64,000 nucleotides of DNA, taken from contig NZ_LUFH02000006.1 of assembly GCF_001586785.1 (NCBI RefSeq), positions 1-64,000 on the forward strand, written 5' to 3'. Both the position numbers and the translations under genes were made by a program. Below the pieces are notes generated by a model. It had not been told where the DNA came from, ran no database searches, and saw only the letters and a list, made by a program, of their open reading frames with translations. This document shows positions 33,427-40,996 of the stretch, one piece after another; positions within the stretch are counted from its first letter, which is position 1, and every line of letters starts with the position of its first letter. Origin of the DNA: Sphaerospermopsis aphanizomenoides BCCUSP55. Its GTDB lineage: Bacteria > Cyanobacteriota > Cyanobacteriia > Cyanobacteriales > Nostocaceae.

Positions 33427-34389
33427 GTTATTTGTACGGATAAAATTTATATGGTTATGTGATTGACTGTTTTTTGTTCTAATAATAAATCATTGTGACA
33501 TATAAGACTCATTTACTGAAGTATGTCTTCGGTATTTTTACTAAAAAATTAAATTCAATCCCCATGAGTAATTTGATAATTTCAGTGTATCTGAATTGGT
33601 ACAAGTAAGATTTCAGGTGTTTTTACTATTGTTAAGATTGTGGACGGCAGCAGAGATTAATGAATTTTTCGTAAAAATTTATTCTTGGGTGAACAATTAT
33701 TACAGTTATGTGCTTATAGGATGAAGGGGGTGTAGGGAACCCCATAATTAAAAACAGGGGTTTCCAGCAAGGACGCTGTATTTTTCGCACTATAGGAATC
33801 TGATTTGATATCTGAAATTATCTATGTAGGCAGGCAAGAGGCACTCATGCAAGAGGCAAAAGGGTTTTAGAGAATTTAGGTGTACGGAGTTTTTTCAAAA
33901 ATCAAATATTATTCCTATATACATCTTTTTTATGTTTCCATACTGAAAAGTAGCGGCTTTAAACCCTTTTGCCAGAGGGAAGAATTATTTTCTACAACCT
34001 TTTGCCTCCAGCAAGACAGCCTTTCTTCGGTACTCCCCTTTGAACCAATAACCTGATTTACGCTCAGAAGCTAATTATATAAAAATAATTAAGAATGAGA
34101 TTATATATCGCAGTAATCATTCTGAAGTCCCAACTAAGCCCCAAAATGAAGTGAAGGGTATGAAATCAGTGAACAGTTATCAAGGTGTATGATGTGGTGT
34201 AATAGCGCACCCACCCTACTAGCAATGGGAGGGAGACTTAAACCCAAATATTTTACTGATAAAGGAAGAAGTTTTACTTTTGGCAAATAACAAAGTTAAA
34301 CTGGTACTTCCCAGCTAGTAGCAAGTAAGGTAGAATATTGCTACAGCAAAATATTGACCAATTAATACGTAAATTGTGCTTTTACCTAC
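33427..34389. other. Long non-coding spacer before the NsiR1 array
   Basis: About 960 bp with no supported gene. It contains a GGGAACCCC/GGGGTTTCC hairpin (33734-33765), a copy of the GCAAGAGGCACTCATGCAAG phrase (33829-33862) that also occurs inverted near 13090, and AT-rich stretches. Short frames have no plausible start or composition. It probably holds promoters for the acyl cluster and read-through from the small-RNA array. Confidence 0.6.
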
Positions 34390-34445
34390 AAAAAACCCCC
34401 AGTAGGTGTTAGCCAGCCAGGGGAGATTAGTTATCAGGGTGCATC
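34390..34445 (-). ncRNA. nsiR1: NsiR1-type small RNA, copy 1
   Basis: On the minus strand the element starts near GATGCACCC and ends in a hairpin CCCCTGG/CTGGGGG followed by a U-run. Its promoter box TCCGGA lies at 34480-34485, about 35 nt upstream of the predicted start, with an AT-rich -10 region between. The ~56-nt size, tandem repetition and place upstream of hetF match NsiR1 of heterocystous cyanobacteria. Ends are predicted, not measured. Confidence 0.83.
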
Positions 34446-34757
34446 TACCAATTTAATGTTCTCAGGTGCTGGACAATCCTCCGGATAAATTTATTTCCTA
34501 GAATTTTGTTTTTTTGTTTTTGTCGGGGTGTAGAAGAGTAGGGTAGTAGAGAGGCAAAGGAGAATCATGTATCGCCTTGCCAACTCGTAATAGCGCAGCT
34601 TGGTCTATGGTTTCTAAGTCCTCGCAGCAGTTATAGCCATACTCCTAACTAGCAACTTACATTGTCAGAGGTGCTTTCACTAAGGCTTTAAAAATTCGTT
34701 TTTCGCTCTACTTCAGAATTTCTGTGGTTTGAGTTGACAGAGAGGTCAATTCTTAAT

Positions 34758-34813
34758 AAAAAACCCCCAGTAGGCTTTAGCCAGCTAGGGGAGATTAGTT
34801 ATCAGGGTGCATC
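34758..34813 (-). ncRNA. nsiR1: NsiR1-type small RNA, copy 2
   Basis: Nearly the same as copy 1 over more than 90 bp, including the promoter. TCCGGA is at 34848-34853; the terminator hairpin and U-run lie at 34758-34790. Differences in the hairpin loop keep the stem intact. Period from copy 1 is 368 bp. Confidence 0.83.
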
Positions 34814-35081
34814 TACCAATTTAATGTTCTCAGGTGCTGGACAATCCTCCGGATAAATTTTTGATAATCAGGGTATATGAGCATTTATTGAACAGCCGCC
34901 AGCAAACAAGATCAAACTTCTCTACCTGATGCAACGATAATGTCAACAATCTGGAGGTTTTAATTTGCTAGTATTGAGTTGGAAAATAAACATTAAATTG
35001 TCAAGGTAGCGTCTCGCTCTTAGCCTAGCTTAATGTTGAGTATTGAATGCTGACCAAGTTAGGATGATGAATACTAACCAA

Positions 35082-35136
35082 AAAAAACCCCCAGAGGTGT
35101 TAGCCAACTAGGGGAAATTAGTTATCAGGGTGCATC
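35082..35136 (-). ncRNA. nsiR1: NsiR1-type small RNA, copy 3
   Basis: TCCGGA box at 35170-35175. Terminator stem CCCCTAG/CTGGGGG (7 bp with one U-G pair) and at least six U. Identical to copy 4 through the transcript region. Confidence 0.83.
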
Positions 35137-35215
35137 TACTAATTTAATGTTCAAGAACTTAATTTCATCTCCGGATCAATTGAGGTGCATAATTACTGTT
35201 GTTTGTGAACCTAAG

Positions 35216-35270
35216 AAAAAACCCCCAGAGGTGTTAGCCAACTAGGGGAAATTAGTTATCAGGGTGCATC
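35216..35270 (-). ncRNA. nsiR1: NsiR1-type small RNA, copy 4
   Basis: TCCGGA box at 35304-35309. Transcript and hairpin the same as copy 3; the sequence between box and -10 region differs. Period from copy 3 is 134 bp. Confidence 0.83.
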
Positions 35271-35352
35271 TACTAATTTAATGTTCAGGTATTCAATCTG
35301 ATCTCCGGAAAAATTGGCGGACATTTCCATCATTGATATTTTTGAACCTCAG

Positions 35353-35407
35353 AAAAAACCCCCAGAGGTGTTAGCCAACTAGGGGAGATTAGTTATCAGG
35401 GTGCATC
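35353..35407 (-). ncRNA. nsiR1: NsiR1-type small RNA, copy 5
   Basis: TCCGGA box at 35452-35457. The transcript differs from copies 3 and 4 by one base or so, but the -10 region is altered (TTTAGATG in place of TAAATTAG), so strength may differ. Confidence 0.8.
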
Positions 35408-35483
35408 TACCATCTAAACGTTCCTATTTACTGTACTATGCTCCGGAAAAATTTCACCCGATGTAGGTGGTTGTCACTTACAG

Positions 35484-35538
35484 AAAAAATTCCTATGGCT
35501 AGTAGCTGCTTAGGGGAGTTAGTTATCAGGCTTGGATC
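35484..35538 (-). ncRNA. Degenerate NsiR1-like copy 6
   Basis: Keeps the CTGATAACT core, the U-run and a weakened hairpin (about 4 bp, CCTA/TAGG), but GATGCACC has become GATCCAAGCC and no TCCGGA box is present at the expected place. Probably not transcribed on its own. Confidence 0.6.
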
Positions 35539-35742
35539 TCCACACTGCTCGATTAAAGGTTAAAGGGGAAGGGTAAAAGATGAAGAAAAAACCTAGATTC
35601 TTTACCCTTTCACCCTTCTCTAAACCAACTTACAACTTCCAGGTTCTACACCGATTAGTATTGGTTGGTGTGGTTGTCCTGAATTTTTATGCTGAATGCT
35701 TAAGAAATTGTTGGGTCAAAGATTGCTTTTTTTGCCAAAATT

Positions 35743-35801
35743 AAAAAGAAAACCTCCGGTCGGTGTTAACCTACCAGAGGAGTTGAAGATCAAGGTGCAT
35801 C
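35743..35801 (-). ncRNA. nsiR1: Diverged NsiR1-type small RNA, copy 7, nearest hetF
   Basis: TCCGGA box at 35836-35841 and a GATGCACC start are kept. The hairpin has a new sequence, CCTCTGGT/ACCGGAGG, that still forms an 8-bp stem before a U-rich tail. Changes on both sides of the stem are evidence of selection on RNA structure. Confidence 0.75.
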
Positions 35802-35986
35802 TACCAATAAAGTGTTCTAGTTGGAAGTAATCCAATCCGGATAAAGTTGTATAAGCCAAAAAAGGCAAAACAACACCAAATCAGAAACATTCCTCACTAA
35901 TATTCATCTAAAGTATCAGCAAGAGGGAAGAATGACTAGAAACTTGTACGGTGGAAACCGGATTTAGGAGGCAAATAGGAGAAGTT

Positions 35987-38443
35987 GTGACCCAGGAATT
36001 TCACATTTCCGTAACTCCAGTAGGGCAAAATGACTACTTGGTGCGGACGGAACAAGTCGCACCTGGGGTGCCATTAGCAGAAGAACTGGTGACTTGGCCT
36101 GTGGCTGAGTGGTTAGCAGCAGCAGGACATCTGATGAATGACCCTTTACAGTTGGTGCTACAGGGAGATGCGATTGCCAGAAACTCTGTAAACTTGGTGG
36201 CACTGGGTCAACAATTATATAATGCACTGTTTCAAGGCACTCTGAGAGATAGTTGGATTACTGCCCAAGGTATTGCCCAGAATCAGCAGCAGGTACTACG
36301 CTTACGTTTGGGGCTAAAAGATACCAGGTTAGCGCGGTTGCCTTGGGAAGTGATGCACGCAGGCGATCGCCCTTTGGCCACAGGCCCTTATATTGCTTTT
36401 TCACGCTACCAGAGTGGAATTCCCTCCACATCACGACTACCAACACGCAATCTACCTACACCACAGGAAGAAAGCGGGGTAAAAGTTTTGATGGTCATTT
36501 CTTCCCCCACTGATCAAGTGCGTCTTGATTTACTCAAACAAGAAGCGATTAACCTGCAAGCGGAACTACATCGCCAAAACCCCCATGTAGAAAATGGTCA
36601 TTACCTGCCAGAAATTGATTTGACGGTTCTTGATCAACCAGGTAGGGAAGAATTAACTCAAGCCTTGGAACAGGGACGATATCACGTCCTTCATTACTCT
36701 GGTCATAGTAATGTGGGTGCGAACGGCGGAGAAATTTATTTAGTTAGTCGCAGAACAGGTTTAACAGAAACCCTGAGCGGTGATGATTTAGCAGGGTTGC
36801 TGGTGAATAATAATATCCAAATGGCGGTGTTTAACTCCTGTTTGGGCGCATATAGGGCAAAAGCTGATACATCTGGGGATACAGGAGAACGCAACTTAAC
36901 TGAAAGCTTGGTAAAACGCGGGATTAAAAGCGTTTTAGCGATGTCAGAACGGATTCCTGATGAAGTGGCGCTGACCCTAACACAATTGTTTTACCGTAAC
37001 TTAAGTCAGGGCTATCCTCTAGATTTGTGTGTGAGTCGGGTGCGTCAGGGTTTAATTTCTGCCTATGGTTCTCACCAAATGTATTGGGCGTTACCGATGC
37101 TGTATTTACATCGGGAATTTGAAGGTTTTCTCAGCCCACAAACTGGTGTGTCTACCAGTGGGGAGTTACTGAATGAATATCAGTCACCGATGGGAACATC
37201 TGCTAATGCGATGTATGCTTCAACAGATGATTTAGAAATGCCTTTAAATTTTGAGGATATGATGCCGTCTGGTTTAGCACGGGAGAGTTCTGAGCTAGAT
37301 TGGCTAGGAGATGATACTTGGGGGGATCTTTTAGATGAACCAGACTATGATCACCCTGGTTATGATGAAGATTCAGCGATTGTTGCGGATCTGTTTCGCC
37401 AATTGGGTAATCCACAAGTCCCCACGGCAGAAACTACCATGAAGGCAGAATTAGAGCCAGCTAAAGGAGAGAATAATCTTCAGGAAATGCAGTCTGCTGA
37501 GGTGGAAGAGGAAATTGATTTTTGGGGTGAGAAACCCAGTTCAGCAACAGCAGTTGAAAGTAATCAGGTAGTTTCTCCACAGATTCCATTAACCTCAATT
37601 CGCCAATCACGTCGCCGACGGCGACTATGGCCGATGCTTGGGATTGTGGGTGCAGGTGTGTTAGCTGCCATAATAGGTTTAAGCTGGTGGTCGCATCATC
37701 AAAAGTCAGCAAATCCCAAAATTCCACCGATTCCTCCCCAAACTGCTCCTAGCACTAAACAAGCACCGATTGATTTAAAAACATCTCCCACAGGTGTTGT
37801 CACTGCTACAGCTACAGAACAATTGAGTCAAGGTAACTTACAACCAGGTTTAGAAGCTGTAGAGGAACTGCTGAATCGTGGGGCTTTAGCTTCAGCAGAT
37901 ACCGCTTTAGCTCTGATCCCCGCCAAGCAAACTGAAGATCCATCTGTTAACTTTATCCGGGGAAGATTGGCTTGGCAATTTGCCCAAACCAGAGATAAAA
38001 AATACAGTGTTGATGATGCCCGACGTTATTGGGAAATTGCGGTGCGGGATCAGCCTAATTCTGTGTTGTATAATAACTCAGTGGGGTTTGCTTACTATGC
38101 AGAAGGAAATCTGAATCGGGCTAATGATGCGTGGTTTAAGGCCGTGAATTTAGCACTGAAGAACCAAAATACAAACTTGACAGCAACGTCAAATAAAAAT
38201 GGTATTCTGCCATCGGAAGCATTAACTTCTTATGCAGGGTTAGCCTTGGGTTTATATAAATCCGTAAATAATCAACCTGCTAATAAACAAACGCAATATA
38301 TGAATGAGGCGATTAAACTTCGTCAACTTGTAATTCAGAATGATCCAGTAAGTTTTACAGTAGATAAGTTATCTCAAAATTGGCTGTGGACAGATCAGGC
38401 GATCGCAGATTGGCGCTCTCTCCTACAACAACAGAGTAAGTAA
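35987..38443 (+). CDS. hetF: HetF, CHAT-domain protease for heterocyst differentiation
   Basis: About 818 residues from GTG 35987, preferred because AGGAGA lies 4-5 nt upstream; an in-frame GTG at 35951 would add 12. The CHAT (caspase-like) domain runs about 165-390 with the His-Cys dyad H240 (YSGHSN) and C285 (FNSCLG). A low-complexity acidic linker, one membrane helix (about 545-568, LGIVGAGVLAAIIGLSWW) and a TPR-like C-terminal region follow. In Nostoc, HetF is needed for heterocyst differentiation and its Cys is required. The long 5' region carries the minus-strand NsiR1 array, so small RNAs from it would be antisense to a long hetF leader. Confidence 0.9.
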   Translation: MTQEFHISVTPVGQNDYLVRTEQVAPGVPLAEELVTWPVAEWLAAAGHLMNDPLQLVLQGDAIARNSVNLVALGQQLYNALFQGTLRDSWITAQGIAQNQQQVLRLRLGLKDTRLARLPWEVMHAGDRPLATGPYIAFSRYQSGIPSTSRLPTRNLPTPQEESGVKVLMVISSPTDQVRLDLLKQEAINLQAELHRQNPHVENGHYLPEIDLTVLDQPGREELTQALEQGRYHVLHYSGHSNVGANGGEIYLVSRRTGLTETLSGDDLAGLLVNNNIQMAVFNSCLGAYRAKADTSGDTGERNLTESLVKRGIKSVLAMSERIPDEVALTLTQLFYRNLSQGYPLDLCVSRVRQGLISAYGSHQMYWALPMLYLHREFEGFLSPQTGVSTSGELLNEYQSPMGTSANAMYASTDDLEMPLNFEDMMPSGLARESSELDWLGDDTWGDLLDEPDYDHPGYDEDSAIVADLFRQLGNPQVPTAETTMKAELEPAKGENNLQEMQSAEVEEEIDFWGEKPSSATAVESNQVVSPQIPLTSIRQSRRRRRLWPMLGIVGAGVLAAIIGLSWWSHHQKSANPKIPPIPPQTAPSTKQAPIDLKTSPTGVVTATATEQLSQGNLQPGLEAVEELLNRGALASADTALALIPAKQTEDPSVNFIRGRLAWQFAQTRDKKYSVDDARRYWEIAVRDQPNSVLYNNSVGFAYYAEGNLNRANDAWFKAVNLALKNQNTNLTATSNKNGILPSEALTSYAGLALGLYKSVNNQPANKQTQYMNEAIKLRQLVIQNDPVSFTVDKLSQNWLWTDQAIADWRSLLQQQSK

Positions 38444-38521: not shown

Positions 38522-38917
<396 letters not shown>

Positions 38918-39852: not shown

Positions 39853-39882
39853 CTGTCACCTGTCACCTGTCACCTGTCACCT
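39853..39882. repeat. Heptamer repeat (GTCACCT), four copies
   Basis: Immediately beyond the poly-His codons of the minus-strand chelatase-like gene; the TAG stop overlaps the first heptamer. Confidence 0.9.
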
Positions 39883-40996
39883 AATGATGGTGATGATGGT
39901 GAGTTAAAGCTAACTGTACATTAACTTCCTTAGCTTCCTCTTGCATCAACTCTGCAATGTGAACATTTGCCCATTCAGCAGCCATATCCAAAAATTGTGG
40001 ATCGTCGTTGACACAAGCCATTTGTAAATAATCAACACCAGAATGCTGTTTTTCTAAATCATGAATAATGTGATGAACATCCAACAGTGTTTCATGGTTT
40101 TCTGTAGCAAAACCAATCGGCATAAACATGATCACTTTTGCACCCAATTGAATGAGATTTTTTGCAGCTTGGGTTGCATTGGGTTGTGTCCATTCAATTA
40201 ATGGTGTGTCGTGGTTTAACCAACCTACAGAAATTAAAGGATAACGGTTAATTAACTTTTCTCTGACTAATTCGTAAAGTGCTTGACTCTCATCAATTCC
40301 TGATGTGAATCCTTTGGCTTTGTGAGGACAACCATGATTCATTAACACGATGCCAATTTGGGAAGGTAAGTAAGCATCTGCTAAGTCAGAGTTAATTTTT
40401 TCTTCTACCAAACGCGCCATTAAATTAATATATTCCGGCTCATTGTAGAAAGAAGGAATATAACGCATTCCTTTAACCCAATGTTCATCACCATCAGCTA
40501 ATTCAGCTAAAGCATTATTAACTTGTTCGATAGCTATACCACTGGTAAAAATAGAATCTACTACCAAAAGGGGATAAATTAAGATTTTTTCAAAACCTTG
40601 ATTTTTGATTTCTGCTAAAACTTGTTTAGGCAAAAAAGGAGCGCAAAAGTTAAAAGCTTTGAAAACTTGAACACCACCACCCCATTTATGTTGTAATTCG
40701 TGTTCAATTCCCGCCCGTTGCCGTTCAAAAATGGCATTATGTGGAGAGATGAAATCATGATGGGTGTGTCCCCACTCATGGCGGTCAAATAATGCCAACA
40801 GTTTTGCTAGGGGGGGATATATCCAAGTGGGTACTGGTGCAAATTTGGCTGTAAGTAGATTTAAAGCCTGTTCATTATAATTAGCGAAATCTTCGTAGCT
40901 TTCGACTTCACCGTAACCCATGAGCAATACAGCTATGCGGTCATGGCCTGGTAGATGCTCATGAGTATGTTGCAGTTTTTCTGGAGTTGCAACCAC
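39881..40996 (-). CDS. Ferrochelatase-family protein with a natural hexahistidine C-terminus
   Basis: Product of 371 residues. The N-terminal IAVLLMGYGEVES block and the later IGIVLMNHGCPHKAKGF and IMFMPIGFATENHETLLDV blocks are those of class II chelatases/ferrochelatases; the His of NHG and Glu of FATENHET are likely metal-site residues. Unlike the usual cyanobacterial HemH there is no C-terminal chlorophyll-binding helix. The protein instead ends LALTHHHHHH, which suggests metal storage or delivery. It may be a second chelatase with a different metal or a non-haem role. The TAG stop overlaps the AGGTGAC repeat. Confidence 0.85.
   Translation of the reverse strand: MVATPEKLQHTHEHLPGHDRIAVLLMGYGEVESYEDFANYNEQALNLLTAKFAPVPTWIYPPLAKLLALFDRHEWGHTHHDFISPHNAIFERQRAGIEHELQHKWGGGVQVFKAFNFCAPFLPKQVLAEIKNQGFEKILIYPLLVVDSIFTSGIAIEQVNNALAELADGDEHWVKGMRYIPSFYNEPEYINLMARLVEEKINSDLADAYLPSQIGIVLMNHGCPHKAKGFTSGIDESQALYELVREKLINRYPLISVGWLNHDTPLIEWTQPNATQAAKNLIQLGAKVIMFMPIGFATENHETLLDVHHIIHDLEKQHSGVDYLQMACVNDDPQFLDMAAEWANVHIAELMQEEAKEVNVQLALTHHHHHH

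Follow-up and report, generated by a model that had tools for sequence, protein, structure and literature searches.

The array upstream of hetF in Sphaerospermopsis aphanizomenoides BCCUSP55 is, judged by its sequence, the known NsiR1 small-RNA cluster, which has a part in the formation of nitrogen-fixing cells in cyanobacteria, in the antisense layout known from Nostoc PCC 7120, and it is probably an amplified offshoot of a more widespread NsiR1 family whose origin predates heterocysts. A bolder reading, to which we give somewhat better than even odds, is that an ancestral HetR/HetZ-DIF1 circuit would have NsiR1 as its RNA output in essentially every HetR-bearing cyanobacterium, with a single-copy form between lgt and cobM, the hetF array as the amplified form, and a seed that is older and shared with a box-free small RNA between gatB and argJ. 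The array alone would be one more strain for a known system, and it is the link to HetR, the lgt-cobM copy and the gatB-argJ relative that are worth following.

According to PMC9045159, PCC 7120 carries 12 NsiR1 copies upstream of hetF with individual DIF1 promoters, and their transcription is HetR-dependent and heterocyst-specific. That paper describes an antisense position of the proximal copy relative to the hetF leader, and repression of alr3234, a hetP homologue, by the identical copies; repression of hetF has been shown in PCC 7120 too. The layout and function of this array are also documented in PMC8406250 and PMC3141674, and a 12-repeat NsiR1 array is reported for Nodularia (PMC3610870). 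The features of the BCCUSP55 locus are the following, the window being the whole 64-kb stretch of DNA that was analysed.

34388..34450, minus strand: NsiR1 copy, farthest from hetF (RF02399, 68.9 bits)
34480..34485, minus strand: TCCGGA (DIF1) box at -35
34756..34818, minus strand: NsiR1 copy (RF02399, 68.7 bits)
34848..34853, minus strand: TCCGGA box at -35
35080..35141, minus strand: NsiR1 copy (RF02399, 67.4 bits)
35170..35175, minus strand: TCCGGA box at -34
35214..35275, minus strand: NsiR1 copy (RF02399, 65.2 bits)
35304..35309, minus strand: TCCGGA box at -34
35351..35412, minus strand: NsiR1 copy (RF02399, 68.5 bits)
35442..35447, minus strand: TCCGGA box at -35
~35482..35545, minus strand: decayed NsiR1 copy, a partial member of the repeat (ends by eye)
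35745..35806, minus strand: hetF-proximal NsiR1 copy (nsiR1.1 position) with the variant seed CACCUUGAUCUUC (RF02399, 59.0 bits)
35836..35841, minus strand: TCCGGA box at -35
35987..38443, plus strand: hetF (NCBIfam NF045509, CellDiv_HetF, from residue 1, 1473.6 bits)

The preliminary description of this DNA had placed seven copies of an NsiR1-type small RNA on the minus strand here, upstream of and antisense to hetF, and this is borne out. With cmscan, six RF02399 (NsiR1) genes of 59.0-68.9 bits are found above the gathering threshold of 39 bits, all on the minus strand and with E-values of 4.4e-9 or better; the seventh copy is the decayed one, and the gene is a true hetF by its NF045509 score. 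The intact units are 62-63 nt long in the Rfam frame, instead of the ~56 nt given earlier, and their start-to-start spacing is 134-394 nt. A 103-nt repeat is present in five copies with 70-100% identity, and its copies in the array are not a matter of chance. Like the array of PCC 7120, this one consists of tandem small RNAs of about 60 nt antisense upstream of hetF, with TCCGGA at -35 and a divergent hetF-proximal copy (as described in PMC9045159, PMC8406250 and PMC6133370). It differs in being shorter, as had been suspected, with six intact copies and one decayed copy versus the 12 reported in PMC9045159.

The window contains eight TCCGGA sites, against a chance expectation of 6.42, and six of these fall inside the 1.45-kb array, 34-35 nt ahead of the 5' ends of the intact copies. 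The six boxes described earlier at about 35 nt before the predicted start are thus all found, one at -34 or -35 of each intact copy. At the remaining two sites in the window (486 and 11190) there is no NsiR1 match, by eye or with Rfam. The seventh copy has no Rfam match up to an E-value of 1, and by eye it has neither the 5' seed nor the box. The hairpin and U-run that had been assigned to all copies hold for the six intact ones, but the terminator hairpin of the seventh folds poorly (-7.3 kcal/mol, z +1.65). For the intact copies, the hairpin z values against dinucleotide shuffles are between -0.35 and +0.23 in four cases and -1.44 and -2.51 in the other two. Since four of the six are no better than their shuffles, it is the Rfam model and not stability that supports the structure, and fold stability was set aside as weak support for the copies. 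A generic sigma-70 and terminator scan recovers neither the NsiR1 promoters nor the NsiR1 terminators and gives fewer promoters than its own shuffles (2 vs 5.8), and for these reasons it was not used.

The likely start of hetF is the GTG at 35987, which has an AGGAG upstream, while the longest open reading frame begins at 35951. At this start, GTGAC(C/T)CAGGAATTT together with the upstream AGGAG is found in all seven Nostocaceae hetF loci that were read. The nearest copy carries the proximal variant of the seed in six of these seven loci, including BCCUSP55, and differs in G012, so that the specialisation of the proximal copy seems to go back a long way. In G001 and G009, two of the six, there is no exact box before this copy.

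We consider it very likely that the locus is of a Nostocaceae type in which each intact copy is a DIF1 unit of its own, the proximal one acting in cis and the others in trans. By analogy with PCC 7120, from which we infer expression and regulation in BCCUSP55, each intact copy would be a separate transcription unit of ~62 nt consisting of a DIF1 promoter, the 5' seed and a terminator hairpin. HetR/HetZ would switch on the DIF1 promoters in cells that start differentiation, and short NsiR1 RNAs would accumulate. The proximal copy would act in cis, as an antisense RNA against the leader of hetF, and dampen hetF translation. The other copies would be its trans siblings, with a seed that pairs with translation starts, the likeliest being those of commitment genes in the HetP family. 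The shared seed would in this way block the translation of HetP-like brakes, and the multiple copies would raise the dose.

A further proposal had been that the hetF leader is long and open to pairing with every copy. That the array is mainly such a cis-antisense device, with each copy pairing with a leader of ~1.6 kb, we regard as very improbable. All six intact copies do read against hetF, but in PCC 7120 transcription of hetF is reported to start at -256, which is within nsiR1.2 and leaves nsiR1.1 as the sole copy after it (PMC8406250), and the NsiR1 seed is common to loci far from hetF. The proximal copy of BCCUSP55 lies 181-242 nt before the GTG and the other intact copies 575-1599 nt upstream, and a hetF leader of the size found in PCC 7120 would hold only the nearest of them. 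The PCC 7120 start site and these distances make the pairing of every copy with one long leader doubtful, and the idea was rejected on these grounds. Identical NsiR1 copies are reported to be able to regulate hetF in part (PMC9045159), which means that the array copies may still act in trans. As for the proximal copy, PMC8406250 describes hetF-gfp fluorescence as little changed when nsiR1.1 is removed or its -10 box replaced. This is evidence against a strong cis effect, and the effect on hetF may accordingly be modest or only translational.

We now consider the trans targets that the cis-and-trans reading predicts. BCCUSP55 has four HetP-family genes. With duplex energies that ignore target structure, and in a test covering HetP genes only, the array seed is predicted to form duplexes that span the start codon and the sequence before it in two HetP paralogues, down to -16.9 and -19.9 kcal/mol, with 0-1 of 100 dinucleotide shuffles equally good. 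The hetF-proximal copy pairs less well, 9 of 100 shuffles being as good for each of the two paralogues. The array seed shows no special pairing with the other two HetP-family genes of BCCUSP55. HetP proper (hetPa) and hetPd were rejected as targets, their start-codon pairing being no better than that of shuffles. Among relatives, 44 of 45 HetP-family loci were scored, with L288 left out and the groups assigned by eye. Seed pairing near a candidate start codon, with no more than three of 100 mononucleotide shuffles as good, is found in nine of the 12 genes of the two HetP-paralogue groups (5/5 hetPb-like and 4/7 hetPc-like) versus 0/32 of the other HetP-family genes. In the remaining hetPc-like genes, pairing is absent for L280 and L282 and reaches only 7 of 100 shuffles for L285. 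The predicted pairing agrees with alr3234 being an NsiR1 target in PCC 7120.

Beyond the array, the BCCUSP55 genome has three RF02399 matches, of 51.4, 38.2 and 31.0 bits, and only the first of these is above the cut-off. By eye, these orphans carry the 5' seed of the array copies but different terminator stems. Two of them are:

L007 1109-1159 (G000 contig C189), minus strand: NsiR1-like small RNA between lgt and cobM, with TCCGGA box (RF02399, 51.4 bits)
L008 1501-1557 (G000 contig C154): NsiR1-like unit with TCCGGA, beside an ExoD-family gene (RF02399, 38.2 bits)

The flanks of the first are lgt (TIGR00544) and cobM (TIGR01465) by curated models, and with its Rfam score, seed and box this orphan qualifies as a member of NsiR1. 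Near the second, at ~1860-1915, there is a possible degenerate second copy.

The first 19 bases of the lgt-cobM copy were used as the query in a scan of named genomes, the box lying outside the pattern. At least 117 stretches carry this pattern, containing at least 126 matches. In 93 of the 126 matches listed (89 loci), both neighbours lie on the opposite strand within 1 kb, cobM on the upstream side and lgt on the downstream side; a further 24 (20 loci) have just one of these genes and nine (eight loci) have neither. An exact TCCGGA is found at -34 to -36 in 115 of the 126 matches listed and a one-mismatch version in the other 11. For the 120 distinct units with enough flank among these, the box is exact in 109 and at least five of its six letters are present at -35 in all 120, versus 0 at -50, 0 at -28, 1 at -21 and 1 at -14 when the same number of letters is asked for at control positions. 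The record titles listed include Planktothrix, Microcoleus, Tychonema, Oscillatoria, Laspinema, Symploca, Lyngbya and Coleofasciculus, which are non-heterocystous genera. The predicted lgt-cobM small RNA thus keeps both its gene neighbourhood and its box in genera with and without heterocysts. PCC 7120 is absent among the at least 117 stretches listed.

In one genome of the same family as BCCUSP55 (G013, a single contig of 3.76 Mb, HetR-positive), RF02399 is matched only twice. The lgt-cobM orphan accounts for one match and the other is, by its pattern, probably a gatB-argJ-type copy, so no hetF array was found in this genome.

An RNA said to resemble NsiR1 has been described in a non-heterocystous species, namely RNA162 of Limnospira indica PCC 8005; it is 57 nt long and, unlike the present case, is discussed in connection with the response to radiation and nitrogen (PMC8400943). 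Table 1 of PMC4734099 holds only small RNAs exclusive to heterocystous strains. A literature search combining NsiR1 and cobM returned no paper, but earlier NsiR1 papers may already mention orphan or non-heterocystous copies, and we make no claim that the wider distribution is unpublished.

When 29 orphans are aligned, six of the 12 predicted pairs change on both sides and yet stay paired, and all of these lie in the terminator stem. That the first 19 columns (A1) do not vary follows from the search patterns themselves and was excluded as evidence. This bears on another explanation, namely that the boxes matter and not the RNAs, the tandem TCCGGA promoters interfering with hetF transcription or titrating the DIF1 activator. 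The boxes are indeed palindromic, and NsiR1 units are found upstream of hetF-like genes also in other families (G027, G031 and G191, those of G031 having no exact box). However, the two-sided changes make the RNA look selected, an exact GTAGATGCACC is present in 40/40 stretches around RF02399 matches in distant genomes, and there are single-copy syntenic members away from hetF. A role of the boxes alone is therefore hardly credible.

The co-occurrence of NsiR1 (by RF02399) with HetR (by PF03574) was counted in two samples, in both cases ignoring the relatedness of the genomes. Among 388 genomes of the order of the source strain, with the genome lists transferred by eye, HetR is found in 236, and RF02399 in 280 at E <= 1e-3 and in 255 at E <= 1e-6. 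At the stricter threshold, 234 of the 236 HetR genomes have a match, the other two having weak ones (~1e-4). Of the 152 genomes of the order without HetR, 21 match at E <= 1e-6, 23 weakly only and 108 not at all. The class-wide sample has 242 genomes, at least 27 of them from the order by eye, and its lists were also compared by eye. Here RF02399 is matched at E <= 1e-3 in 123/123 genomes with HetR vs 5/119 without, and at E <= 1e-6 in 118/123 vs 3/119. A weak match below the cut-off is obtained even for the Escherichia coli control, so matches near E 1e-3 mean little. The RF02399 searches over 40 genomes had stricter filters, at the cost of weak matches, and limited scored candidates, which makes the per-genome counts lower bounds. 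The exact orphan pattern is present in 174 of the 388 genomes of the order, 166 of them HetR-positive, and the backwards control pattern gives 0 in every row.

It is possible, although we think it rather unlikely, that this co-occurrence reflects shared ancestry only, both genes marking one lineage with no functional coupling. Counts that ignore phylogeny would allow for this, and NsiR1 is kept where HetR is undetected in family f32 and in genus g83 of family f18 (loci L173-L178 and L188-L216). The promoter speaks for coupling, as it lies outside the Rfam model. The loci for the box counts were picked from the listed, mostly strongest matches and not at random. In 38 HetR genomes outside the order, the box at -35 is exact in 25 of 41 units and has at most one mismatch in 41/41, whereas the control positions -50, -28 and -21 give none and -14 gives five one-mismatch cases. 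Within the order, exact boxes drop from 68/75 units in 25 HetR genomes to 4/29 units in 15 genomes without detected HetR, five of which are less than 90% complete (65-89%). Since 11 of these 15 genomes belong to two families, the drop represents few independent events.

The link between box and HetR is, however, not a clean story. With G278 and G378 left out, units of the order without HetR have an exact box in 3/27 cases and at most one mismatch in 26/27, and G405, the sole HetR-less genome of the class sample that was read, has an exact box. In f18 (g83) and f32 the boxes are mostly one letter off (TGCGGA, TCCTGA, TCCCGA, ACCGGA), and in six HetR-less genomes of f18 the box is TGCGGA throughout. 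According to PMC7377430, DIF1 dependence runs more directly through HetZ.

We turn now to the third form, for which BCCUSP55 has the following feature.

L009 1501-1552, with a second copy at ~1783-1830 (G000 contig C218): box-free small RNA with the NsiR1 seed, gatB-argJ (two tandem copies by eye)

This type has the pattern AGUAGAUGCACCCUGAU(A/G)A and, after it, a GGAGAG stem. Of 195 genomes that were sampled in the order, 36 carry it, some of them without a HetR match. Sixteen of 34 such loci have gatB as the upstream and argJ as the downstream neighbour, on the same strand; in this search, nine of the rest are beside gatB only, one is beside argJ only and eight are beside neither. By eye, most sites have -10 boxes resembling TATACT or TATATT, and not even five of the six TCCGGA letters are found at -35 in any of the 36 units. 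Upstream, close to the -35 region, a palindrome similar to GGGGTGACACCCC is seen in many relatives. At seven loci the RF02399 scores are 28.8-39.4 bits, the highest being barely above 39. On these grounds the gatB-argJ small RNA is best classed as a relative of NsiR1 and not as a member: only the seed is common, the DIF1 box is lacking and the scores are, with one marginal exception, too low.

The seed, (U/A)(G/A)GUAGAUGCACCCUG, is common to the hetF array, the lgt-cobM and the gatB-argJ small RNAs. As it occurs in a boxless RNA, also in genomes without HetR, it is not tied to HetR, and it may be an old general-purpose seed that was put under HetR control and only afterwards came to be directed at hetF and hetP-like genes. 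The presence of NsiR1 relatives in nearly all sampled HetR cyanobacteria, including non-heterocystous ones, likewise suggests that NsiR1 may have begun with an older job. A parallel is PatX, which is reported in all HetR-containing cyanobacteria, as older than heterocysts and with a DIF1 promoter (PMC7761841); PatX is a protein or peptide and NsiR1 an RNA, so NsiR1 would be a second companion of HetR. The family-wide result bears on the question of what HetR does in cyanobacteria without heterocysts, where the function of HetR and patX is said to "remain a mystery" (PMC11298460). A boxed syntenic small RNA alongside HetR would offer a concrete readout in non-heterocystous strains, and the shared seed a route to targets.

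Finally, some observations can be added on the surroundings of the array. Downstream of hetF and on the same strand there is a P-II nitrogen regulator gene (38570-38917). Beyond it lie a gene for a helix-turn-helix protein and a ferrochelatase gene, the latter on the minus strand (39881-40996) and with a predicted C-terminus that ends in six histidines. The other flank of the array carries genes for an AMP-binding protein (fatty acyl-AMP ligase-like) and for an acyl-CoA dehydrogenase. A 25-nt inverted repeat (33839-33863 / 33998-34022, 80% complementary, 134 nt apart), possibly a small mobile element, is found between the array and the first of these two genes.
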